A stretch of 34,651 nucleotides of DNA from Microcaldota archaeon (GTDB taxonomy: Archaea > Micrarchaeota > Micrarchaeia > Micrarchaeales > CABMGC01), in NCBI GenBank assembly GCA_021827925.1, contig JAKATZ010000008.1, forward strand, positions 1 through 34,651, read 5' to 3'. Of the stretch, positions 2,760 through 30,585 are shown in pieces. A model generated the notes under the pieces. The model saw only the letters and a list, made by a program, of their open reading frames with translations. It did not search any database and was not told the DNA's origin. Each line of letters begins with the position of its first letter. The stretch's first letter is position 1. A program made the position numbers and the translations under genes.

Positions 2760-3743
2760 ATGGAACAGGCTATACAGTATCCACAGACCACGCCTTCCGA
2801 AAAGAATTGGCAGGAGATACTCGCATGGGCTGTAAAATCCGTGGCGGCCCTGCAATCAAAGCTGATAGGCCTAGAGATAAACGAGGCCGTATCAAGGCAG
2901 AGCCTTGCCACAAAGCTGCTAATGTTGATAGCCGGCAAGCAAGCCGAGAAGTCGATAGCACCTTACATAAGCGCGGTGGTGTTTCTGGCATTCACAGGAA
3001 GGAGCATAAGCAGGGAAAATGTAAGCAAGGTTCTCGGCGCGGCCGGATTTCAGGTGAGTGCAAGGCCGCTCAATTTCATATCCACTCTGAATTTCAAGAA
3101 TACGCTGGCATATGCGCCTGCAATCTATTACATCAGCGTTATGAATTCGGTAAAGCTGGGCCCAGATAGCCTTATGAACGTAGTAAATGCGATGGGTGTC
3201 GAATCCGATGGGAAGACCGCGGCAAAAGTCATTAAGATATACTCGGAACTTGCATCGCAGAAAGAATCTTCCCAACGCGCAAACTCAAAGGATTCCCTGC
3301 AGCAGAAGCTTGACCTGGCCATAGCCCCTGCAGCTAATATGACTGCGGATACTCTGATAAATGAGCTGAACAGGATATTCGAGTATGAAGATACACAGGA
3401 GAACATGAGGAATGGGCTAGTCCCGTATATTGCCGCTGCTGGGGTGCTTGAGTTCATAGGCAGGGATCCGACAGCCGAAGGGCTCGAGTCTTTCCTCCAT
3501 GGGGTAAAGCGTGTTGTGAATGCCGTGGGTATACGCGTTGACAATGGCATGCTCGATTACATACGCAAGCTTAACCTTGGCAGGACGCCTTTAATATACG
3601 TTCCTGCGCTATATTTTCTCGCATCGCTTGAGAAAGGACCCACTGTAGAAGGGATAGTCGCCATTCTTGATTCAATAAAGGCACCCTCTGACCCCGCAAC
3701 CGCCGGATACTTCCTTACGTTATACAACAGCAACAAATCCTAA
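2760..3743 (+). CDS. Tandem-repeat all-helical protein; units resemble the archaeal ribosomal stalk L12/P1 N-terminal domain (paralogue A)
   Basis: YISAVVFLAFTGRSISRENVSKVLGAAGFQVSARPLNFISTLN matches the L12/P1 pattern YIxAxxxLxxxGxxIxxExVxxVLxAAG. Related units recur three more times. Paralogue of 4507..5442. Confidence 0.7.
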   Translation: MEQAIQYPQTTPSEKNWQEILAWAVKSVAALQSKLIGLEINEAVSRQSLATKLLMLIAGKQAEKSIAPYISAVVFLAFTGRSISRENVSKVLGAAGFQVSARPLNFISTLNFKNTLAYAPAIYYISVMNSVKLGPDSLMNVVNAMGVESDGKTAAKVIKIYSELASQKESSQRANSKDSLQQKLDLAIAPAANMTADTLINELNRIFEYEDTQENMRNGLVPYIAAAGVLEFIGRDPTAEGLESFLHGVKRVVNAVGIRVDNGMLDYIRKLNLGRTPLIYVPALYFLASLEKGPTVEGIVAILDSIKAPSDPATAGYFLTLYNSNKS

Positions 3744-3875
3744 GACAACAGCGTGTCGTGAACCTCTCCAGAAAAGAAGAAAGAGAGAAAATGTGAAGAG
3801 AGCGGCGGTACTACCAATAATGTACCTAACTAACTACTACCCTGACCTCTTTTTATTCATTTTTATTAGCCTAGA

Positions 3876-3962
3876 GTATACCCCAACCCCTTGGGGTGGG
3901 ACACTAATATCGAAGATGCAACAGTCTTGCGATACAGCATACCCCACAGCTTGCTGTGGGGT
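3876..3962 (+). repeat. Three-hairpin repeated element, copy 2
   Basis: GTATACCCCAACCCCTTGGGGTGGG and AATATCGAAG are shared with copy 1. H1 3881-3886/3891-3896; H2 outer TATCG(3908-3912)/CGATA(3930-3934); H3 CCCCACAGC(3942-3950)/GCTGTGGGG(3953-3961). Confidence 0.8.
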
Positions 3963-4085
3963 GGTTGATTTTTTAGTAGATTGGGAAAGCAGGATACTCT
4001 TCTTGCCCACACGTCTTTTGACGTATGCCCTATCCGCACTAGGATACGTTTAAGAATTTTAGTATAAAGACCTTACTGTGATAAA

Positions 4086-4448
4086 ATGGCAAAACAGCAG
4101 CCCAAGAAAAACAACAACAATGCGATCTTTGCACTGGAATTCGTAGGAAGCCTACTTTATTTGGCTGTCCTTTTCTCCGGCGCAGCGTTCCAGGCATCAG
4201 TATGGACTCCTGTGCTATACGGGATGGCGACGGTAAGCGCCGTAGCGCTCTTCTTCATAAGCATGGCAAACTTCGGGAACAACATGGACAAGCGCATTAT
4301 CTCGCGCGGTGCGATGAGTGCAACAGTGTTCGGCGGATTCGCCCTCTTCTCCCTGACGGGCATGACTGCAGGCAGCGGGGGTCTATTTCTCGCTACGCTT
4401 CTGGGGTTTGTCCTCGGATTCATAGGCGCGGGAATCGGTCACCAGTGA
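4086..4448 (+). CDS. Small multi-pass membrane protein, unknown function
   Basis: 120 aa with a hydrophilic N-terminus followed by about four hydrophobic segments; ATG after a TATA-like 'agtataaag'. Confidence 0.7.
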   Translation: MAKQQPKKNNNNAIFALEFVGSLLYLAVLFSGAAFQASVWTPVLYGMATVSAVALFFISMANFGNNMDKRIISRGAMSATVFGGFALFSLTGMTAGSGGLFLATLLGFVLGFIGAGIGHQ

Positions 4449-4478
4449 AAGCAACTCCTCCTGAAGATGCGGCATCTG

Positions 4479-4500
4479 GGCGGGCAGTTTTCTGCCCGCC
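4479..4500 (+). terminator. GC-rich hairpin between convergent genes
   Basis: Perfect 9-bp stem GGCGGGCAG-TTTT-CTGCCCGCC, between the stop at 4448 and the minus-strand stop at 4507. Confidence 0.6.
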
Positions 4501-4506
4501 TTCGTC

Positions 4507-5442
4507 TCATCGCTCGTTTGTGAAATAGATTGTGAGGATGTATTCGGCGAACGCTTCGTCAATCTGGGCTCCCATCGCACGCATCACGTTCCTTATGTTC
4601 TGTATGTTTACAACCCTCCCCGCTTCCCTCAGGAAGAATATTATCGGTACATAAGCGAGATCCACTGTACCGTAATTCAGTGAGGAGAAGTAGCCAAGCA
4701 TGGACTGATCCGGCTCTATCCCTATCACCTTTATAAGCGTACTGATACTCTCGCCGTTAACCTCCTTCCCCTTGCCGCTGTAAGCCATGACTCCAGCGCC
4801 AACCACGTACGGGAGGAGCCCTTTCTGCATCTGCTGTCCGATGCCTCTGTTCTCAAACGTCCTCCTCAGCTCCATTATCATGATCTTTGCCATAAGCTTC
4901 GCAGAGTCTGTTATGGGCTTCGCCAGTTTATCATCAAGCAGCCTCTTCTTCGTGCTATAGTCCTCCTTCCGCATCTCGCCGTAGAGCCCGAGCACTCTAC
5001 CTGCGCCGTCTTTATCAGCCTTTATTCCCATTGCTTCCACTATCTTCCCCATGCTATCCGCATCGGGCTCCTTCCCAAGGGCCTTCATAAAAAAGAGGGC
5101 AGGCACGAACACCGCATCGTTCCTGAGGTTTATCAAAGACACGAAGTTCATGATCCCGGTGTCGGGGTTTATGCCTATCGAGCTTATTATGCTTTCTACG
5201 CTTTCCCTGTTCACATACTTTCCTGAAAATGCCAAGAGGCTCACTGCACCTATGTACGGAGACACTGCCTCTTCGGCCTTTTTGCCTCCCACAGCCATCA
5301 TGACTTTCTGCATCACTCCCTCCTGTTCGACAGCCTTGCCTACGCTATCTGATATCAGGCTTATGAACACTTCAGTAGCCTCGGATATCACCTCTCCGAG
5401 CTTGCCCTCTATTACCCTTATGTTATTCGAACCGTCTTCCAT
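4507..5442 (-). CDS. Tandem-repeat all-helical protein; units resemble the L12/P1 N-terminal domain (paralogue B)
   Basis: VSPYIGAVSLLAFSGKYVNRESVESIISSIGINPD, VPALFFMKALGKEPDADSMGKIVEAMGIKAD, LLPYVVGAGVMAYSGKGKEVNGESISTLIKVIGIEPD and VPIIFFLREAGRVVNIQNIRNVMRAMGAQID. Start taken at MEDGSNN. Confidence 0.7.
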   Translation of the reverse strand: MEDGSNNIRVIEGKLGEVISEATEVFISLISDSVGKAVEQEGVMQKVMMAVGGKKAEEAVSPYIGAVSLLAFSGKYVNRESVESIISSIGINPDTGIMNFVSLINLRNDAVFVPALFFMKALGKEPDADSMGKIVEAMGIKADKDGAGRVLGLYGEMRKEDYSTKKRLLDDKLAKPITDSAKLMAKIMIMELRRTFENRGIGQQMQKGLLPYVVGAGVMAYSGKGKEVNGESISTLIKVIGIEPDQSMLGYFSSLNYGTVDLAYVPIIFFLREAGRVVNIQNIRNVMRAMGAQIDEAFAEYILTIYFTNER

Positions 5443-5636: not shown

Positions 5637-8303
5637 TTGGGAAGCGGTATCTCGGAATCCAATATCGGAAAGTCTGCAGGAAGAATGCCGAATGGCATCG
5701 CTGCGGATAGAATCGCGTTTCTGCTCATAGTGCTCATCGGCCTGGCTGTCGCCATCTTTCTCCGAACATCGATGCTGAAGTTCTACGGCTTCTTTGAGCC
5801 CGACGGCTTCTACCACTTCTCAGTGATAAGGTATGCGGTAGCCCACGGCTTCCAGATACCAAAATACCTTGACATATCCGGGTGGCCGTCCCATACGATA
5901 GTGCTTGAACCGCACGGCCTCTACTGGGCGACCCTCGTGCCTTACTTCTTCCTGCAATTCTTCGGTGTAAGCTACTACGCTGTAATGAGGCTTGTTCCAG
6001 TACTCTTCGGTCTATTCGACATCATCGGCGCATACTACCTTTCACGGTTTATAAGCAGGGACAGGCTCTTCGGCCTACTGGTCATATTCCTCGTTGCGCT
6101 AAGCTCCGGAGACGCAGCAAGGACAAGCGCACTGATATACCGCGGCGACGGATTCGTAACAATATTCGTCATACTCGCCTTGATATTCCTGGTTAAGGTT
6201 TACAAGGAAAAGGACACGAGGAGCAAGATCATATTCGCGGCCCTCTCGGGCATTGCACTGAGCTTCTGCAATCTCGTGTGGATAGGCGGGGAGTTTGCCA
6301 CGGCAGTTTACATCCTTTCATTATCATTGATACTGGCCAGCGGTTTCATTGCAGGGAAGAAGGAGAGAGTCATTGACTCCGCGTACATACTTTGCGGAAT
6401 GGTCGTATGGTACATTCTCGTAAATATCTACGCCATCTCAGGATTCATGGCTCCGGGAGACATATTCACCGGGCTTGATTTCCTTCCATTCATAATATCC
6501 TTGTCTTTAGGATGCATCGCATCGTACTTCGTAATTGAATTAGGGTCGCAATCCATCATTGGCGATCCAGTCGTAAGGGGCGGGCTTGTTATTGCCGCTT
6601 TCATCGCAGTAATGGCCCTTCTCTCAGTAACCGGGATACTGTATAATATATTCGTAGCAAACGGCTTCGTAGTGACAACAAGCTTCTCCGCAACAATCCA
6701 GGAACTCACTCCTCCAACGTTCAACTTTCTTTTTGCCAGCTTCGGCTCAACTCTGTTCACTACTCCAATGACGCTCATGGCCATTGCCTCCATATCCGTA
6801 ACGCACAACAACTTCGAACGTATACTGGCATTTGCCATAGCCATGCTGGGATTCCTGCCATACCTCTTCATGCGCATATACGATTCCTCCGGCTTTATGA
6901 AAGGCAACGCCCGGCTAAGGCTAGACCCCGATGTCGGCATGCTTGCTGTGGGTGCATATCTCGCAACGACGCTATGCCTGCAAATGATAGCCATAAGGTT
7001 CAACTCCCTGGTATCGATACCACTCGCAATACTCTCGGCATACGGCGTGTACTGGTTGATATCGTACTCAAGGTCCGAGAAACAGTCTCTGGTCTCTATG
7101 GCTGCACTGGCACTACTCCTGCTCTCTGTAAGCACTGCCATCGGTTACCAATCGCTCATATTTTTCTCCTCGTACATAGCATACTCTGCCGCAAAGCTCT
7201 ACGCCGTGCTAACTGCGATAGGTTTCCTATTCCTAGTTGCTCTATACTACTTCACCAAAGGGGGGAGCATGGAACTCTACGGCAGGGTGGCACTCGTCGC
7301 ATACATATTCCTGTTCTTCATATCAAGGATATTATTCCCGCAGTCGCTCCCACAGACGCTGCTTCTCTTCTTCTTCCTGCTGGCAGCCCTGGCAGTTCTC
7401 GCCTTCGATTTTTTCAACAACTCAAACAATTGGCATATTGTACTAATATTTTTCTTCATATTCACGATAATGCAGCTTGACTTCTCCTACGGCGCCTCCA
7501 TCGGCCAGGCGGACAACATAAACCCGCTGTTCATAAACGCAATGACGTGGCTAAAGAACAACTCACCCAACAGCAGCGTCGTTCTTACTCTTTGGCCAGA
7601 CGGCAGCGTCGTCGAAGGTGTTGCTAACAGGACGAGCGTTACCGATAGCGTGGGCTCGCAGAACCTCACCAAGGCGGACCTTTTTGCAGCATGGCTGCTT
7701 AACCAGAGCGCTGACCCTCAATTCCTCACAAGCAGCATAAACGGCAGACCAAACTATCTTGTGACAAGGTTCACCTGGCTGAGCGAGACCAGCGGCATAT
7801 ACGTTGAGTCAGGCCTGCCAAATTCAACAGTGCCGGGGTACTCGTACGCCGCGCTTGGCAGCGTCGGAGAATCGTTACAGAGCAACTACACTGCACTGAA
7901 ATTCGGAGCAGGGCCCAACACCGAAGTCATAGCAATGCTTCAGAAGGGCAGCATAAACGGCTACATCCAGACTCCGCAAGGCATCTCTCCATTCTCATAC
8001 ATAGGCTTTTACGATCAGGACAACGGCAACTTCACAATAATACGGCAGTCTTCCTATAATGTTACCAACAACCAGACATTGATGATAGTATACTCCGGGG
8101 TTCACAATCCAAGCCTTCCAATAAACATCACCGGTGCTCTGGTCTTCAGGAACCTGATAGCCAACAGCAATATGTTCAAGCTGCTCTATCTCTGCGGTCC
8201 TTCAGGTTGCGCATGGGACAACGGGCTCGCCCGCCTGCAGCTTGTGTACGTGAATTCAGACACGAAGATATTCAAGATAATATATAACAACACCAACGGA
8301 TGA
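5637..8303 (+). CDS. aglB: Oligosaccharyltransferase, AglB/STT3 family (GT-C)
   Basis: Multi-TM protein with FEPDGFYHFSVIRY (first acidic motif), IYRGDGF, TIQE (TIxE motif) and a C-terminal ectodomain with NAMTWLKNNSPNSSVVLTLWPDGSVVEGVANRTSVTDS in the WWDYG position. Start uncertain (5637 TTG or 5685 ATG). Confidence 0.85.
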   Translation: MGSGISESNIGKSAGRMPNGIAADRIAFLLIVLIGLAVAIFLRTSMLKFYGFFEPDGFYHFSVIRYAVAHGFQIPKYLDISGWPSHTIVLEPHGLYWATLVPYFFLQFFGVSYYAVMRLVPVLFGLFDIIGAYYLSRFISRDRLFGLLVIFLVALSSGDAARTSALIYRGDGFVTIFVILALIFLVKVYKEKDTRSKIIFAALSGIALSFCNLVWIGGEFATAVYILSLSLILASGFIAGKKERVIDSAYILCGMVVWYILVNIYAISGFMAPGDIFTGLDFLPFIISLSLGCIASYFVIELGSQSIIGDPVVRGGLVIAAFIAVMALLSVTGILYNIFVANGFVVTTSFSATIQELTPPTFNFLFASFGSTLFTTPMTLMAIASISVTHNNFERILAFAIAMLGFLPYLFMRIYDSSGFMKGNARLRLDPDVGMLAVGAYLATTLCLQMIAIRFNSLVSIPLAILSAYGVYWLISYSRSEKQSLVSMAALALLLLSVSTAIGYQSLIFFSSYIAYSAAKLYAVLTAIGFLFLVALYYFTKGGSMELYGRVALVAYIFLFFISRILFPQSLPQTLLLFFFLLAALAVLAFDFFNNSNNWHIVLIFFFIFTIMQLDFSYGASIGQADNINPLFINAMTWLKNNSPNSSVVLTLWPDGSVVEGVANRTSVTDSVGSQNLTKADLFAAWLLNQSADPQFLTSSINGRPNYLVTRFTWLSETSGIYVESGLPNSTVPGYSYAALGSVGESLQSNYTALKFGAGPNTEVIAMLQKGSINGYIQTPQGISPFSYIGFYDQDNGNFTIIRQSSYNVTNNQTLMIVYSGVHNPSLPINITGALVFRNLIANSNMFKLLYLCGPSGCAWDNGLARLQLVYVNSDTKIFKIIYNNTNG

Positions 8304-10565: not shown

Positions 10566-12263
10566 TCAGGTGTACGCTGCACAGTTCCACACCGGTTCTT
10601 TCTTCAGCGAGTATATCAGCAGATTGTTAACTCCGCTGCTGTTTCCTACTTCTTCGTATACCAGCGTGAGATTCGCGTCCATGCCGCTTATCACTCTCTG
10701 CGGTCTCTCGAAGAGCTGAAGGTTAGTGCCATTCACTTTCCTGTTCGCCAATGGCTGAAAGTCCGAGACAAGCAGATAGTCGGGCTTTCTTGCGACAACA
10801 TAGCTTAGGTTGCCTGCCCTGGCGTACAGGAAATCCTCGAATGCCCACCATTCCGTATTGTTTGCATTGTAATTGGTGTCGCTGAACGTCTTCCTGTCTC
10901 CCCAGTACTGTATTGCGGTGCCGTCTGCCTCAGAGCTGAGGAATGTGGCATTCGATACTGTGTTCAACTCAGTGCAGAGCATCGCCTGCTTCATGACTTT
11001 GCTTATGGAAGGTACCGCCGGGGAATACACTATCTGTCCTGTGTCGAGGACGAAACCAAAGATCAGCAAAGCGGAGAATAGGAGCATGACAAACCTCCTT
11101 CTCTCGCCTTTGTAGAAGCTCAGCAGAGAGCCGGCAAGTATCGAGATCGGAATAAAAAGAAGGGATTCGAACCTGCTGCTCTGAAGCGTGAAAGGCACCG
11201 CAAAAAGCAGCATCGCCCATACGACCATCCACGCCTCTCTCCTGTTTCTGTCTGCCGATCCGAACGAATCCCATTTTACCTTGATGCTGGCCGCCATGGC
11301 CGGCAGCCATGATGTTGCAAATCCTACGAGTATCCAGATAACGAGAGTTACGCTGCCCAGAGCATTTGTCCATATCCCTATTGGGTAAGTCTGGTAAGCG
11401 AAAGGCTCTATCATTCCAAGAACCTGCATCCCGTTAATGATAACCTGCCCTTTTCCGAATACAAGAAGGAAAGGCAGAGAAGTTATTATAACGGGAGCCA
11501 GAAAGAAGAGTCCCCATCCCAACAGGAACATTGAAGAAAGCACTACAATGCCTTCGCGCTTCAATCCAGAGAATATCGCAGCAATAAATGCGAAGACCCA
11601 GAGTACGATGGCATAAACTCCCCCGTTCCAGATAAGGAAGGCGAGAACTGCCGGCAGCACTGAAAGAAGCATGGTCCGAGGCCTCTCCGCTTTTATCATC
11701 ATAAGCAGTGATAGTAGCGAGAGCGCAGGCACATACACGTCACCCCTGAAGAGATTGAATGCCGAGCTGTACATGCCCGCCCCTGAAAGGGCGAAGAAGA
11801 GTACCGCGAAGAGCGCTGCGCCATGGTCTCCGGTCATCTCCTTCGTGTAGAGGAAGACGCAGAGCGCAGCAAGCGTTATGAACGCAGCGTCGGCAATCCA
11901 TAGCGCATGGTAGAAGCCCAGAAAGCCGAGGAACTGCTCTATCTTGAGGCCAAAGTAGACTAGCCCCTGCTCCGAGAATATTATGTTATGACTGGTGTAC
12001 CCTGCTAGCATATTTGGTGCGAGTGTGTACGCATCTGCGATGCCCTGCCTGAGCGCAAGCATACCTGCCATGCTCTCTGTATCGAGGATATTGCCGCGCA
12101 TGAGGTATAGCGCTCGCGTGGCTACCGAGAGCAGCACAAGAACTGCGAGGACGTAGATCTCCCTGCTTCTTGCATTTTTCCACTGTACTACAGAGAACGG
12201 AAAAATCCTCCTCGCAAACTCGCCATTGATGACGGGATCCGAAGCCCTGTTTGCTTCATGCAT
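10566..12263 (-). CDS. Diverged STT3/AglB-like GT-C membrane protein
   Basis: Multi-TM; LFRGDVYVPALSLLSLLMMIKAE parallels IYRGDGFVTIFVILALIFLVK of 5637..8303; IIFSEQGLVYFGLKIEQFLGF parallels VLEPHGLYWATLVPYFFLQFFG; ectodomain SNATFLSSEADGTAIQYWGDRKTFSDTN parallels NSSVVLTLWPDGSVVEGVANRTSVTDS. The start could be as far upstream as 12344. Confidence 0.7.
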   Translation of the reverse strand: MHEANRASDPVINGEFARRIFPFSVVQWKNARSREIYVLAVLVLLSVATRALYLMRGNILDTESMAGMLALRQGIADAYTLAPNMLAGYTSHNIIFSEQGLVYFGLKIEQFLGFLGFYHALWIADAAFITLAALCVFLYTKEMTGDHGAALFAVLFFALSGAGMYSSAFNLFRGDVYVPALSLLSLLMMIKAERPRTMLLSVLPAVLAFLIWNGGVYAIVLWVFAFIAAIFSGLKREGIVVLSSMFLLGWGLFFLAPVIITSLPFLLVFGKGQVIINGMQVLGMIEPFAYQTYPIGIWTNALGSVTLVIWILVGFATSWLPAMAASIKVKWDSFGSADRNRREAWMVVWAMLLFAVPFTLQSSRFESLLFIPISILAGSLLSFYKGERRRFVMLLFSALLIFGFVLDTGQIVYSPAVPSISKVMKQAMLCTELNTVSNATFLSSEADGTAIQYWGDRKTFSDTNYNANNTEWWAFEDFLYARAGNLSYVVARKPDYLLVSDFQPLANRKVNGTNLQLFERPQRVISGMDANLTLVYEEVGNSSGVNNLLIYSLKKEPVWNCAAYT

Positions 12264-12443
12264 ATCCTTATCAATGCACAGCAATGGTATTAACTCCCAC
12301 TGTGTCCAGTGCCTGTTGTATATTATGCTGCGCGATAATGCCACAGCGGCTTTAAACTAACTATTACGTCTGCAAAAGAATCCATATACAACAATCAACG
12401 AATTTTGTCCGGGAATATGCAAATAAAAAGTTAAACAAAACGC

Positions 12444-12496: not shown

Positions 12497-15400
12497 ATGA
12501 AAAGTCTATACGCAAAGAGGATAGCCGCTGTAGCGGCAAGTTTGTTAGTGGGCCTTGCGTCCGCTGGACAGGGAGTTACCTATGGTAACATTCCCATAAT
12601 AAGCACAACCGGGCAGCCTGTCGTGCAGATCGTAGTAGGATCTACCGCGCAGCCTAGCGACGGAGTGGTAGCCGCAAACATCGCTGCGGTGATAGGAAGT
12701 CTGGCGCACACGACACAGAACGTAACCGCAAGCATATCCGGTCCTGGGGGGGCTAGTGTTAATAACAGCTATGGCGTAACATGCGCAATCACGCAATCGC
12801 TTTGCTCGATAAGCAATCAGCAGGTCTGGCTTGGAGAGAAGGGTGGAGTCGCTGCTGCGGGTTCATTCTCTTTTGCGGGATTAATAGGATCTATAATAAA
12901 CGGGGGAGTTATAAACTCTGCAAACTTGGGTAACACGAAGTACTCCTCAACAACAGCAACGCAGGCAAATGTGGGTTCCTCATTCATATATCCTGACGTT
13001 GGCGGATCCGGACCTTTCACTATCTCGACCTCACCTACGCCACCTAGCGCGTGGGAAGGAGTCGGCCTGCCTGGCTCTACGCCTTCGGCAAGTTCGACAA
13101 GCGGTGGCGTGACGCTCGGAAAGTTCACGCAGGGAACAGGCTCCAACGCAAAGGACAACGTAGTGCAATTCACTTCCTCGCAGATACCTGGCTTGCTCAA
13201 TGCATACGGGACTAATCTCGAGTCAGAGTCTCTCTGGCTTGCAGGCTATCCTGTATACGACCAGCAGTCAAACGTTACAAGCTTTGCGTTGCTAAACGTT
13301 AACGGCGCATACCAGGTGACCTTCGGAAAGCCTATCTCGAACCTCACGGGAGGTTCCACAACACTGCAGGCATTCCAATTCCTGGGACAGAACTGGTCAA
13401 CATACGCGTTCAAGCCTCCAGTATTGACAAGCAACTGGCCTACCTCCTCGCAGTTCGTAGTAGGGGGAAACATGACCTTTGCATCTGCCTCTACTGCACT
13501 TACGCACGTAAACGTTGGCGGCAACCTGACAACAGGAAACATAACCGTGCAGCTTAACGACCTTGAGCAGCTTGGAAGCAACCAGCCTGACGCCACATTC
13601 ACTGTGTACAAGAATGGCGTAGCTACAAACACCTCGGTTATAGTGTACTCCGGGCACACAGTACCTGTAAATTCCAGCGGCACGCTCATACACATAAGCA
13701 TGCCTCAGGCATTCGCAGGATTGTACGGAAACGCAAGGTATGCTGACGTGCAGCTATTCTCAAACATACTGAACGTATCTAATGGCGGCTACTGGAACAC
13801 GAATAACAAGAACTGGCTAGTGGAGCTAAGGTGGACATCAAACCAGTCCTCCATGCCTGCGAACCAGCTTGTATTCTCGAAGGACGCGCAGCTGCAGTCG
13901 ATAATACTGTACAGCAACCAGTCGACTACAACGATGCTGACCCCTGGGTCTACCTTCGACTACATCCAGAACCCTGCCGTATGGAAGCTGACCTTTGCGG
14001 GAGATACTCTCGGAGCTCCTAGCAGCGGAAACTCCAATTTCGATGCGCTCTCATTGTCGACGAGCTCATCCACAGCGTCTTCATCGACTGGAGGATCTGC
14101 GTACACGAACATCGGCGGAAACAGCATGTATCCTGTGACGGCTAGGGTCTTCAACGGCCTAACCTTTGCAGCTGCCGGAAGCACTCCTGCGGTAAACGAC
14201 AGCACAGTGCAGGAGCCAGTGAACCTCTTCACAGTTACGAGCCAGATACCTACGGCATTCACGATAGTGCCTAGTGGGGCTCTTGCGGCGCCTTCAACAA
14301 GCCTGCAGAGCGTAAACTACAACCTGGACTCGTACAAGTTCACTCCGTACAATGCCGTGCAGGCGAACACCCTTGTGAACGCCACTGATCCAAACGCCGG
14401 TCTTGTAATACAGCTGATAAACAATGGGGTATCCGGAAACTACATAAGCAACAACAACAACTTCAATGTTTATCTGACTGGTTACAACGGCAATGGGCAG
14501 AAGCAGTCCGGTACGGCGCTTGAGGCTACGTACAATTCGTTCTACGGGGACACGGCAGCGCCATTCAACGGTGGCAATGTCGTAATATACGAGAACGGAA
14601 AGACCCTCCTGGCGAACCTAACAGGCATAACCTTGCAGTATGCGCTGCCTAACCCTGGGGTAAACGTCAATGTATTCGAATCTGCGAACGTCCCGGCAAA
14701 CGGAATAAGCAGCAGCGCTGGAAACGAGATCCTTCTTGGTTCTCTTACGTACAATGGCCCGAAGCTCTTCTATAAGCCTGCTTCGTATGGCTACTACGTG
14801 GCTCCTGTGGCTACAAACTCCACCGTAACGTACAGCGGAGAGAGCAACAACGTGAACTTCAAGATACAGCAGAACTCTCCTGCGAACACAGTCGCAAGGG
14901 GTTCGTACTTCACGTACAACATACCTGAGTTGATCTCTTCGAGCGCAACGACGACTGAAGCCGCTACGTTCATAGACCTGACGAACTCCACATCAGCGCA
15001 GCAGCCAAACCCTCTGTACCTGCTGAACTATACGAATGGGTACAACAATGCGGTTGACTACGCGAGTTCTTCGGACTATCTGCTTAACCCAGGTAATCCT
15101 GAGGGCAGCGGAGTAAAGGCGCTGACAGGGTTCAGAACAGAGCGCGGAAGCGCAGTAGGCGCTATACCGCAGGGATCAGGCACTCTGACGTACTACATGG
15201 CAAAGAGCGTCGGCGGCCTTGAGTTCCTCGTGGGTCCGGCAAACACGAACATCACGACGAGCACCTCTCTCTATGGGCCTTACTCGGTCGGAGCAACTAC
15301 AAACCTGCCTAACGTAACGATAGCGAAGGTAAACGCAACATGCCAGTTCGTATCGACAACCAACACTTGCACGATAACTGGCGCAAACAAGCTGGTTGCG

Positions 15401-15715
15401 ACACCTTCAGTAACGCAGGCTTCAGTAGCAACCGTGATAGACCCTACGAAGGGCGTTCCTATAGCTGTACTCGATACGCAGGCAAACAATGCCTCCTCCG
15501 AGATAGTCATAGGAAGCAAGTACGTGAACAGCGTTGCGGCGCAGATATTCTCTGCAAACCCTTCGCTGAACTCAGCGTTCGCTCCTACTGGACCTGACTC
15601 TGTGATAGTGCAATCCTACCAGAACAAGATACTGGTCGCGGGATACACTGCGCAGCAGACAGTGCAGGCGGGCAACGAGTTCATAACGAACCTGCTGGCT
15701 GACGCTGGTGCGTAA
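12497..15715 (+). CDS. S-layer protein (methanococcal-type S_layer_N/S_layer_C architecture)
   Basis: Signal peptide MKSLYAKRIAAVAASLLVGLASA; N-terminal PVVQIVVGSTAQPSDGVVAANIAAVIGSLA; C-terminal GPDSVIVQSYQNKILVAGYTAQQTVQAGNEFITNLL. By-eye count of about two dozen N-x-S/T sequons. Confidence 0.92.
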   Translation: MKSLYAKRIAAVAASLLVGLASAGQGVTYGNIPIISTTGQPVVQIVVGSTAQPSDGVVAANIAAVIGSLAHTTQNVTASISGPGGASVNNSYGVTCAITQSLCSISNQQVWLGEKGGVAAAGSFSFAGLIGSIINGGVINSANLGNTKYSSTTATQANVGSSFIYPDVGGSGPFTISTSPTPPSAWEGVGLPGSTPSASSTSGGVTLGKFTQGTGSNAKDNVVQFTSSQIPGLLNAYGTNLESESLWLAGYPVYDQQSNVTSFALLNVNGAYQVTFGKPISNLTGGSTTLQAFQFLGQNWSTYAFKPPVLTSNWPTSSQFVVGGNMTFASASTALTHVNVGGNLTTGNITVQLNDLEQLGSNQPDATFTVYKNGVATNTSVIVYSGHTVPVNSSGTLIHISMPQAFAGLYGNARYADVQLFSNILNVSNGGYWNTNNKNWLVELRWTSNQSSMPANQLVFSKDAQLQSIILYSNQSTTTMLTPGSTFDYIQNPAVWKLTFAGDTLGAPSSGNSNFDALSLSTSSSTASSSTGGSAYTNIGGNSMYPVTARVFNGLTFAAAGSTPAVNDSTVQEPVNLFTVTSQIPTAFTIVPSGALAAPSTSLQSVNYNLDSYKFTPYNAVQANTLVNATDPNAGLVIQLINNGVSGNYISNNNNFNVYLTGYNGNGQKQSGTALEATYNSFYGDTAAPFNGGNVVIYENGKTLLANLTGITLQYALPNPGVNVNVFESANVPANGISSSAGNEILLGSLTYNGPKLFYKPASYGYYVAPVATNSTVTYSGESNNVNFKIQQNSPANTVARGSYFTYNIPELISSSATTTEAATFIDLTNSTSAQQPNPLYLLNYTNGYNNAVDYASSSDYLLNPGNPEGSGVKALTGFRTERGSAVGAIPQGSGTLTYYMAKSVGGLEFLVGPANTNITTSTSLYGPYSVGATTNLPNVTIAKVNATCQFVSTTNTCTITGANKLVATPSVTQASVATVIDPTKGVPIAVLDTQANNASSEIVIGSKYVNSVAAQIFSANPSLNSAFAPTGPDSVIVQSYQNKILVAGYTAQQTVQAGNEFITNLLADAGA

Positions 15716-15770: not shown

Positions 15771-15928
15771 CTCTGATTTTCTTCGAAATTCCAGTACCTT
15801 TCTGCCTTCTTTTCAACTTTCTTCTAAAAAATCACCCGGAAATGATTTTACGTCGTAAAACATGTATTGTCTGCAAAATTGGATTTAGCAACATTTTTAA
15901 ATCCTTCCTGCTTAATACAAGTGATTCG

Positions 15929-17998
15929 ATGCGACATCTCGCCGCGCTTCCGCTCTTACTCTCATTGCTTCTTATTCTTCCAATAAGCGCGCTCTCACCG
16001 GGCGCGATGCTGCAGAATTACAACGTGCCTAATTCCCTTATAGCGAATCTTACCGAGATAAATGCCACTTATGGGAGCTCAAGCTACGCGCTTCTCTACA
16101 AAGGCAACTCCCCATACTTTGTAATAAACACAACGCACGGCGTTAACGAGTTTGTGACTGATCCGTCTGCAATAAGCGCAATAATAAGCGATACCCAGGC
16201 CGGAATATCCACGCGCAGCATAAACTTCACATACCTGAGCGGGCAAATGACTGCCTACATAAGCTCCGCTGCAACTGTGATGAATGCATGCCTTCGGTTC
16301 ACAGGACTTGACCATCTTACCTGCACAAAGCAGAACTTGTGCCTTTCCTGCCAGTCTGTACCTGCATGCAAGGATTATTATCTCGGCACAGGCGCCCTTG
16401 GCGGTGTAGGTAGCGTAAGCATAATGCAGTTCGGCAGTGCCTACGCCAACCTTACCCGGAATCTTACTATTTACTATCAGAGCTCCACAAATGTGACTGC
16501 CCTGGATCTGATCAGCAAAACTGCCTCTCTTAATGCAGCATTCTCTAACGTCTCCACCATAACAAGCCATATCTACCAGAATCCCATCTTCCCTCCTCCG
16601 CCTGGCGTCGACTACTCCCAGTGCCCTGGCACACCGCTCCAGGGGCCATGGTGGTGCTGGTCAGCCAACGCATCTGGCATCTGCGGCGTTTTCAATGCGC
16701 ACACGGGCCTCGGCGAATACAGCCCCATATATAACCACACCTTTCTGAACAACGTGAATGCAAGCCTCAAGAGCATCAACCCGAACCTGCCAACACAGCA
16801 GAACCTGCTTGCAATGGCACAAGCTGTCATAAACAATCAGAACGCGTATATAGAGCCTGTGGTGCAAAAGGCAAAGAAAGCCGAGCTTGACGCACTGCTC
16901 AACGGCTCTCTGAGCAGCTATCCGTCGCTAAAGAACGGCAGCACCATTCTTCTCACGCACATATACAACACCTCTCTGGAATATTCTCTTCTTGCACTGG
17001 AGAGCGCTTACAATAATCTGACATCAGACTACCTTACCTCAAACATACAGGCAAACGGCGCCGTTGTGGCAGCACAGCTGCAAAACACAACCTTGCTATA
17101 CAATGCCATCTCCTCAGAATATTCCTCCCTTCTCTCCAAGGCAAGCAACAATACCCTTCTGCTTATCGAGGCCCAGATCTCCGGCGCAAAAGGCAATGAG
17201 ATCGCAGCTCTCTCTTTAAATGAAATGAAGCTTAACAACGAAGTTCTCGGCCTTGTTGGCAATTCAACCGCAGCAGCCGCGCTCCTAAACACAATCTATT
17301 CGAGGGCCCGCACTGTCGTGCCTCTCAGCATCGGCGCTGGCAACGTAGTGAGGGCTATAGATGGCCCTTTCGCAACATCCCTCGCGCTCGCAATGGGTCT
17401 CTCGTATGACTCTGGGATTGCGCTCTCGCCTCTTCTATCATCTCTGCTATCTCTTGTAATAGGCGCGGTCATACTGTTGCTTGTCTATGGTTACTACCTA
17501 ACGCTGAAGCACAACCGGAAGGTGATACTGAACCGCAGGACAGCCAGGGTCTGGAAGCTACTATTCTCGGTAGCTTCAGTGCTGCTGCTTATATACATAC
17601 TACTGACGTATCTCCTTGCCACCTCCGCTGGCCATGCGCCCGCTGGCAGCCTTTTCAGCGCAATACATGGCGCAAGGAGCATCGCAGTCGTCTTAAACGG
17701 AAGCAGCATCTCGCGCAGCACAGTCAAATGCGGCGATCTCATAATCAGCCAAGCAAGATCCATTGGAAAGAACGCCGCACTAATGTACGTAAACGGGACA
17801 AGCTGCACAATGAACGATACCACGACGAGCAAGAGTTCCTGCCTGAACTCTTACGTGAGGGATGGCGATCCGATAGTGGTGCTCACGCAGTCTAATCAAT
17901 CTTCGATAAGCATATACTCACTGTACGGCACTGCGCTCCATGCAAACGGCAACCAGAGTTTCATGGATGCGTGCTATGCCAGTCTGTTCATAAAGTGA
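15929..17998 (+). CDS. Secreted, heavily sequon-bearing membrane-anchored surface protein, unknown family
   Basis: Signal peptide MRHLAALPLLLSLLLILPISALS; >20 N-x-S/T sequons by eye; Cys-rich segment; hydrophobic TM segments near the C-terminus. ATG 15929 preferred over 15842: TATA-like tttttaaat lies ~30 nt upstream. Confidence 0.75.
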   Translation: MRHLAALPLLLSLLLILPISALSPGAMLQNYNVPNSLIANLTEINATYGSSSYALLYKGNSPYFVINTTHGVNEFVTDPSAISAIISDTQAGISTRSINFTYLSGQMTAYISSAATVMNACLRFTGLDHLTCTKQNLCLSCQSVPACKDYYLGTGALGGVGSVSIMQFGSAYANLTRNLTIYYQSSTNVTALDLISKTASLNAAFSNVSTITSHIYQNPIFPPPPGVDYSQCPGTPLQGPWWCWSANASGICGVFNAHTGLGEYSPIYNHTFLNNVNASLKSINPNLPTQQNLLAMAQAVINNQNAYIEPVVQKAKKAELDALLNGSLSSYPSLKNGSTILLTHIYNTSLEYSLLALESAYNNLTSDYLTSNIQANGAVVAAQLQNTTLLYNAISSEYSSLLSKASNNTLLLIEAQISGAKGNEIAALSLNEMKLNNEVLGLVGNSTAAAALLNTIYSRARTVVPLSIGAGNVVRAIDGPFATSLALAMGLSYDSGIALSPLLSSLLSLVIGAVILLLVYGYYLTLKHNRKVILNRRTARVWKLLFSVASVLLLIYILLTYLLATSAGHAPAGSLFSAIHGARSIAVVLNGSSISRSTVKCGDLIISQARSIGKNAALMYVNGTSCTMNDTTTSKSSCLNSYVRDGDPIVVLTQSNQSSISIYSLYGTALHANGNQSFMDACYASLFIK

Positions 17999-28725: not shown

Positions 28726-29652
28726 ATGCAAATGAACGAGATCGATTCTCTCTTTCTAAGCAAGGACCCTGCAGACGTATTTGCTTTCTATTCCAAGTTC
28801 AATAATGCCGGGGACATTCTCGCCTATGTAAGAGGCCGTACTTACAACAAACCCCGCATATTCGAGAAAGACGGGGACAAGGACGTGGTCGCGGTCATCC
28901 CTACAAGGGACCACAACGGCGAGTTTGCCAAGAGCTTCTGCGACATCTTCAAAGGGTTCCACATAATAATGGCGGAGAGCGGAAACGATCCATATTTCAA
29001 CTATACCAAAAACACAAATTTGGCTGTAGAAAAGGCCGTATCCTACGACCCGAAATGGATAATAGTCTCAAATGACGACATGTACGGAATAGACGATCCT
29101 GCAGTCCTGAGGCAGGGGCTTCTCCGGCTTGACAACGGGAAGATAGATAACGTGTGGATAAGCCCAGAACCAGAGCACCATCACTGCCACTCCATACATC
29201 TTGTTGAGTGCAAGAAGGCGCTCGGAATACTGCGCAAAGTACAGGGCGCTTATCAAAGGAAGGCACACGCCGTCTTGAATAAGTTTGGAGTCGATTACAC
29301 GCTTCTCTACGGCCAGTTCAAACCACACTACTCCCTTTTCTTGCGCAACGTCAAGCAGTTTCTCGTTACGGAAGATTTCTTTGTCATATCCGGAAAATAT
29401 GCAAGCAGTATCTATAACTCCGGACACAGACTTTACGACGAAGCGTTCATAAATAACGCAGAGGACGCGTGGCTGTCTCTAGGCTTCGGCCCTGAAAGAA
29501 GCGCGTACCTCGAATTTAAAATAGGCTCAAGGATAAACGGTACGTTCACTCCTAGCAAAAGCAATGATGCCCGGGGCATACTTGAAATGATATTATTCGA
29601 TTATAAACTGAAGGAATATCTTCATGATCATGGTAGGTTACCCTGCCAATAA
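28726..29652 (+). CDS. GT-A-like putative glycosyltransferase, tandem paralogue 1
   Basis: VVAVIPTRDHNGEFAKSF...NTNLAVEKAVSYDPKWIIVSNDDMYGIDDP resembles a GT2 core with a DD motif. 349-bp tract shared with 29668..30585. Confidence 0.65.
   Translation: MQMNEIDSLFLSKDPADVFAFYSKFNNAGDILAYVRGRTYNKPRIFEKDGDKDVVAVIPTRDHNGEFAKSFCDIFKGFHIIMAESGNDPYFNYTKNTNLAVEKAVSYDPKWIIVSNDDMYGIDDPAVLRQGLLRLDNGKIDNVWISPEPEHHHCHSIHLVECKKALGILRKVQGAYQRKAHAVLNKFGVDYTLLYGQFKPHYSLFLRNVKQFLVTEDFFVISGKYASSIYNSGHRLYDEAFINNAEDAWLSLGFGPERSAYLEFKIGSRINGTFTPSKSNDARGILEMILFDYKLKEYLHDHGRLPCQ
28840..29188 (+). repeat. 349-bp apparently identical direct repeat, copy 1
   Basis: Base-by-base reading matches 29788-30136 at constant offset 948. 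Confidence 0.9.
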
Positions 29653-29667: not shown

Positions 29668-30585
29668 ATGTTAGATAAAATGAACGAGTTGGATTCCCTT
29701 TTTACGAGCAAGAATTCTGAAGATGTGCTTGAGTTCTATTCGCGGTTCAATACGGTGGATGACCTTCTCAATTATTCGCGAAATAGAACTTACAACAAAC
29801 CCCGCATATTCGAGAAAGACGGGGACAAGGACGTGGTCGCGGTCATCCCTACAAGGGACCACAACGGCGAGTTTGCCAAGAGCTTCTGCGACATCTTCAA
29901 AGGGTTCCACATAATAATGGCGGAGAGCGGAAACGATCCATATTTCAACTATACCAAAAACACAAATTTGGCTGTAGAAAAGGCCGTATCCTACGACCCG
30001 AAATGGATAATAGTCTCAAATGACGACATGTACGGAATAGACGATCCTGCAGTCCTGAGGCAGGGGCTTCTCCGGCTTGACAACGGGAAGATAGATAACG
30101 TGTGGATAAGCCCAGAACCAGAGCACCATCACTGCCGTAACGTATACCTTGTCAGGAAGCGAGCAGCGCTGGGAGCACTCCGCAAACTCCAAGGTGGCTA
30201 CCTGCAAAAAAGGCAGAAGATACTTGACAGATTCGGGGTAGACTATTTCCTGATGTATTCCCCTTCAAAACCCTATTACTTCCCTTTCGTAAAATACCTT
30301 AAGACGTTCCTAAACACGGAGGATTTTTTTGTGCTATCCGGCAAGTACACGCACAGTCTGCATTCGTCCGGAAAGGAAGTGTATGATGAGATATACATCA
30401 ATGCCAATGAAGATAATTGGCTCTCCCTCAACCTGGGCACAGAGAGGAGTTCTTACATCGATTTCAAGATCGGCTCAAAAATCGGCAGCAGTTATGGACT
30501 GACCGAAAGCGCCGAAGCACGCAGGATAATCGGCACCATCTTTTTTGATCAGATGCTGAAGAAAAGCAGGTTAGTGAAAACCTGA
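29668..30585 (+). CDS. GT-A-like putative glycosyltransferase, tandem paralogue 2
   Basis: Same architecture as 28726..29652; central region identical, N- and C-termini diverged. Confidence 0.65.
   Translation: MLDKMNELDSLFTSKNSEDVLEFYSRFNTVDDLLNYSRNRTYNKPRIFEKDGDKDVVAVIPTRDHNGEFAKSFCDIFKGFHIIMAESGNDPYFNYTKNTNLAVEKAVSYDPKWIIVSNDDMYGIDDPAVLRQGLLRLDNGKIDNVWISPEPEHHHCRNVYLVRKRAALGALRKLQGGYLQKRQKILDRFGVDYFLMYSPSKPYYFPFVKYLKTFLNTEDFFVLSGKYTHSLHSSGKEVYDEIYINANEDNWLSLNLGTERSSYIDFKIGSKIGSSYGLTESAEARRIIGTIFFDQMLKKSRLVKT
29788..30136 (+). repeat. 349-bp apparently identical direct repeat, copy 2
   Basis: See 28840-29188. Confidence 0.9.

Follow-up and report, generated by a model that had tools for sequence, protein, structure and literature searches.

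Tandem units resembling the N-terminal domain of ribosomal stalk protein L12 in a multi-copy archaeal protein family with KaiC-linked members

The 34,651-nt stretch of DNA analysed here (hereafter the window; contig JAKATZ010000008.1 of the Microcaldota archaeon assembly GCA_021827925.1) encodes two paralogous proteins, A and B, whose repeated units are, on strong evidence, homologous to the N-terminal domain (NTD) of L12/P1. With a probability of roughly 0.5, we read A and B as non-ribosomal, L12-NTD-derived helix-binding adaptors or assembly scaffolds that partner KaiC ATPases, where we infer both the partner and the mechanism. If this reading is correct, a ribosomal stalk domain has been reused outside the ribosome in eleven copies in a genome of <1 Mb, an unusual case of domain capture; the copy number is notable because paralogues are costly in a genome of that size. 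The reading would also provide a candidate function, with a testable KaiC partner, for a group of DPANN archaeal proteins annotated as hypothetical, and the family would represent a natural system for the conversion of a homodimeric domain into an intramolecular pseudo-dimer.

Both genes are real open reading frames (ORFs), and the unit sequences quoted in the original prediction, which had proposed two paralogues with a four-unit layout, were found in both. Protein A (327 aa) is encoded at 2760–3743 on the forward strand and protein B (311 aa) at 4507–5442 on the reverse strand; their pairwise alignment covered ~310 residues, nearly the whole length, with 30% identity and 54% positives (E = 5e-55). 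Judged from their sequences, A and B are paralogues, each consisting of a lead-in helix followed by two units (a and b), with this arrangement doubled. In A, the first lead-in region (2799–2960) was placed by alignment with other halves and by the helix in the AlphaFold2 models of B, followed by unit 1a (2961–3089; TIGR03685 profile positions 3–34 at 2964–3059 and an N-half profile match of 95.6%) and unit 1b (3108–3251; alignment and a second N-half profile match of 93.9%). The second half of A comprises a lead-in region (3282–3422; alignment), unit 2a, which carries a 7-residue insertion (3423–3575; alignment and a C-half profile match of 92.2%), and unit 2b (3591–3725; alignment and a C-half profile match of 94.1%). 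The corresponding regions of B, all on the reverse strand, are the first lead-in (5260–5412; modelled helices at residues 2–39 and 43–50), unit 1a (5128–5259; TIGR03685 match at 5158–5256), unit 1b (4981–5112; N-half profile, and a TIGR03685 match at 5011–5094 with E = 9.9 alone), the second lead-in (4813–4953; helix 6–40 of the half model), unit 2a (4675–4812; TIGR03685 match at 4696–4809), and unit 2b (4525–4656; TIGR03685 match at 4549–4653).

The sole significant library match of A or B was the N-terminal part of the NCBIfam model for archaeal ribosomal P1 (TIGR03685), at 2.1e-10 for B (40.8 bits, in three separate stretches) and 2.7e-4 for A (21.2 bits). Single-half relatives reached 2.7e-14, and the best family score seen was 53.3 bits, so that all sequences scanned lie far below the cut-off of this model (100 bits). 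No Pfam family reached its cut-off in A or B, PADLOC returned nothing for either protein, and PHROGs returned nothing below 0.1; one single-half member gave weak partial matches in PADLOC (5.8e-4) and PHROGs (0.0032). The family is thus undescribed in the libraries searched, in agreement with the original prediction, which knew of no described family with this layout. When the P1 model was run over the whole genome of origin, the true L12 ranked first (C5:12350, 105 bits), and the next 18 matches all fell within the family, among them all four units of B and a single unit of A.

Profile-profile comparison with the NTD of 27 genuine Micrarchaeota L12 proteins yielded 97.2 and 96.8% for units a and b of the single-half forms, respectively, 95.6 and 93.9% for those of the N halves, and 92.2 and 94.1% for those of the C halves. 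By comparison, 60 column-shuffled L12 profiles never exceeded a probability of 0.7% against the profile of single-half forms, and the control profiles of KaiC and P0 stayed below 1%, the latter built from 25 P0 reads of which at least two were wrong frames. In a reciprocal search, a true-L12 HMM run over 4,715 ORFs from the gene neighbourhoods analysed produced 108 matches at E < 10, namely L12 itself and 107 family ORFs and nothing else, and a family half profile recovered true L12 sequences at 20–43 bits. In the PDB, hmmsearch with a profile of 28 single-half forms matched P. horikoshii P1 (3a1y) through unit a (2.1e-8), followed by four eukaryotic P2 chains through unit b (0.0046–0.13). An alignment of 28 rows diverged too much to be used in a pattern search. 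Given the profile-profile values relative to the shuffled controls and the specificity of the reciprocal HMM, homology of the units to the L12 NTD, as originally predicted, is strongly supported over chance resemblance.

The basic and most widespread form of the family is a single half of ~160 aa with two units, which could not be visible to the original prediction, made from four-unit proteins. In a tree of halves, whose bootstrap is not fully settled and which has some long branches, the N halves of the expanded doubles clustered together (38 of 39 rows), as did the C halves (36 rows), and the doubling therefore appears to have preceded the radiation of these proteins. Other doubles were located elsewhere in the tree and seem to be independent fusions, such that doubling would have occurred several times. 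In one genome (G052, L097), two adjacent single genes correspond to a fused gene in another (G038, L096), one pairing in this tree with its N half and the other with its C half. The tree of doubles contained groups common to several genera; B clustered with genes from G022 (L092:5988-6935) and G031 (L094:5238-6164) with a support of 98/99, and both of these relatives adjoin the single-half gene. The dN/dS ratios of ten family pairs ranged from 0.05 to 0.22, which indicates functional, constrained genes under purifying selection. Among positions conserved at ≥70%, hydrophobic and aromatic residues and Gly predominated, and a single His (80%) and a single Asp (84%) were also present; this composition is more in line with binding than with catalysis.

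Family members are not ribosomal stalk proteins. Their scores lie below the cut-off, they occur in many copies, the hinge and the LFG-type tail are missing, and the same genome holds a normal L12 (C-terminus GGLASLFG) together with P0 at C5:11497-12646. The C-terminal ends of A and B read LTLYNSNKS and LTIYFTNER, respectively, and bear out the original statement that the acidic hinge and the stalk tail are absent. Each unit class of the family matches the NTD of aL12/aP1 (TIGR03685; P. horikoshii P1, 3a1y) at model positions of about 3–46, whereas the chains differ from it in holding two or four units plus lead-in helices and in lacking the acidic/Ala-rich hinge and the GLxxLFG tail. The stalk gene is single and lies beside rplP0, whereas the 11 family genes are spread over several contigs and were not found beside it. 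In the eukaryotic P1-P2 heterodimer, a single platform for helix binding is made by two different NTDs; the family likewise has two distinct NTD types, units a and b, but within one polypeptide, where they may pack in a heterodimer-like manner. The lead-in helix was considered as a mimic of the P0 spine and rejected because its profile similarity to P0 was just 0.2–0.6%. The P0 (uL10) ORFs read from relatives (L201–L225) and from the genome of origin (C5:11497) were short (~280 aa), with untrimmed starts and at least two reads in wrong frames; none of those read ends in an LFG-type factor-binding tail, while the L12 of these genomes does.

The genome of origin, from Candidatus Micrarchaeota (969 kb in 33 contigs), contains 11 family copies, a count that leaves out a twelfth match (E = 0.02, six stops). 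Occurrence across related genomes, a check proposed with the original prediction, was tallied from a table of matches at E < 1e-19, and such strong matches were found in 67 of 301 genomes of the phylum (listed as Microcaldota), confined to two families of one order and patchy within it (67 of roughly 170 genomes). Nearly all other genomes of the phylum gave one weak match each to the family profile; this match is probably the true L12, since isolated true L12 sequences obtained 20–43 bits with this profile. The half profile scored the L12 of the order itself at 31.8–42.9 bits (n = 22) and that of five genomes of other families at 20.1–31.0 bits, without overlap, which is consistent with an origin of the family from the order's own L12. 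Scans of genome-contig and viral-contig collections with B alone as query returned no relatives, and a viral or mobile origin was rejected for the lack of relatives of B among the viral contigs. This distribution bears on the P0-binding ribosome factor raised in the original prediction, whose units would still bind the P0 spine helix and compete with or replace L12 dimers, tuning stalk occupancy or hibernating ribosomes. Such a role would fit the homology of the units to a P0-binding domain, the higher scores of the order's own L12, and the presence of P0 and L12 in the genome, but it has become unlikely in view of the patchy distribution, the up to 11 divergent copies, and the missing tail needed for factor recruitment; moreover, no member was seen beside rplP0 or rpl12, the linkage being to KaiC instead.

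A family member adjoins a same-strand KaiC-like gene at ten loci in ten genomes (L059, L068, L069, L084, L086, L088, L089, L090, L116, and L117), the two genes either overlapping by as much as 4 nt or lying up to 64 bp apart, and a second KaiC gene mostly lies beyond the first. The KaiC assignment is based on PF06745 (6e-37 to 1e-49) and the presence of Walker A and B motifs. In the genome of origin, the linked copy (C15:59149) is followed by three KaiC genes, and in G042 (one contig, 952,257 bp), two KaiC genes and a half at C1:165453-167373 are joined by 4-nt overlaps at each junction; the single-half form is located in the KaiC operon in several genera. The number of KaiC matches per genome was at most 6, and a rough binomial estimate of obtaining this linkage by chance ranged from 1e-11 to 3e-7, with per-locus probabilities assumed and relatedness uncorrected. 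All six expanded genomes (G000, G011, G022, G031, G033, and G036) have the linked KaiC subtype. Archaeal KaiC-like ATPases have been proposed as signal-transduction hubs (Makarova et al. 2017, as cited in PMC5847659). The ATPases beside family members are single-domain forms, and an L12-derived KaiC partner was not found in the searches and literature examined.

The KaiC linkage is the strongest lead on the function of the family. KaiC cannot be the only partner, because A, B, most of the expanded copies, and most single-half loci lack a KaiC neighbour, and some genomes with a single half (G018, G037, G046, and G059) have no KaiC match. The strict version in which every family gene is KaiC-linked was accordingly ruled out, as was that in which every KaiC pair has a family gene beside it, since five genomes have a pair without one adjacent. 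These KaiC-like pairs lie at L152, L153, L154, L155, and L156, and a thioredoxin-like ORF follows the pair at L153 (G048). No recurrent neighbour was seen for the solitary four-unit paralogues.

In the proposed mechanism, the family would descend from the N-terminal domain by which L12/P1 dimerises in the ribosomal stalk, and the basic module would be one half, composed of a lead-in helix and two L12-NTD units. Stalk dimers bind the spine helix of P0 (PMC3794596). As the L12 dimer clasps this helix and two units are here present per chain, each half could plausibly fold into an intramolecular (cis) pseudo-dimer. The helix bound by it would be either the lead-in of the same half or one belonging to a partner. 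Fusion of two halves would have produced the 320-aa proteins, whose four units may constitute a two-site adaptor, and duplication would have led to up to eleven copies. With the hinge and the factor-binding tail lost, translation GTPases would not be recruited, and the proteins would function without catalysis, as adaptors or as scaffolds for assembly. Among candidate partners, a KaiC-like ATPase has the best support, since several members have such a gene, and often two, next to them; the two proteins may be in direct physical contact. Solitary paralogues would have either these clients or different ones. A broader version is offered tentatively, as somewhat less than an even prospect: a ribosomal domain captured in one archaeal order may have been built into a multi-paralogue KaiC adaptor system, in which halves act as cis-dimer copies of the stalk base and multi-copy doubles as client-specific adaptors in a signalling or assembly network of archaea with such small genomes.

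A KaiC-independent alternative is a self-assembling scaffold, or an envelope or cytoskeletal repeat protein, whose paralogues co-polymerise through stalk-type dimer interfaces. The co-existence of several paralogues, the tandem arrangement of dimerisation domains, the scarcity of conserved polar residues, and the character of the window as a surface-glycosylation region are compatible with this possibility. We nevertheless consider it improbable, given that visual inspection of A and B revealed no signal peptide or membrane segment, that no surface gene recurs as a neighbour, and that the single-half form occurs in the KaiC operon in several genera.

For the C-terminal half of B, AlphaFold2 (29-row alignment) predicted an all-helical structure with a pLDDT of 88.6, in which a 35-residue lead-in helix (residues 6–40) precedes two three-helix units (45–66/74–83/90–98 and 108–117/124–133/140–154, corresponding to units 2a and 2b, respectively); the full-length model of B was weak (pLDDT 73.7). 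A Foldseek comparison with stalk structures had been suggested together with the original prediction. Neither the half nor the full-length model had a PDB match at E ≤ 0.001 in Foldseek searches, and the 50 matches listed included no L12/P1/P2 structure, the stalk NTD targets being short; the best-ranked matches were calmodulin-like helical proteins and insignificant. The stalk fold of the units is putative, as is their pseudo-dimer packing. Convergence of helical repeats upon an L12-NTD-like appearance, to which these short helical units and insignificant calmodulin-like matches might point, is very improbable considering that the true-L12 HMM matched just the family and L12 among the 4,715 ORFs, that the family profile finds L12, and that shuffled profiles fell so far below the real ones.

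Regarding the surroundings of A and B, a small ORF between them (4086–4448) has a membrane-protein-like appearance and no Pfam match. Positions 5637–34432 of the window form the surface-glycosylation region, with many glycosyltransferase-like and nucleotide-sugar ORFs, including an STT3/AglB-like ORF (5637–8303; PF02516) and an S-layer-like protein (12497–15715; PF05124). Two further large ORFs, at 10566–12344 (reverse strand, 592 aa) and 15842–17998 (forward strand, 718 aa), appear membrane-rich and have no Pfam match. Tandem paralogues on the forward strand (28726–29652 and 29668–30585), the first without a Pfam match, share a core of ~115 aa that is identical by eye and flanked by divergent ends; over a stretch of 300 nt, identity at the DNA level is 87%. 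The pair has the appearance of a gene conversion or a partial duplication.
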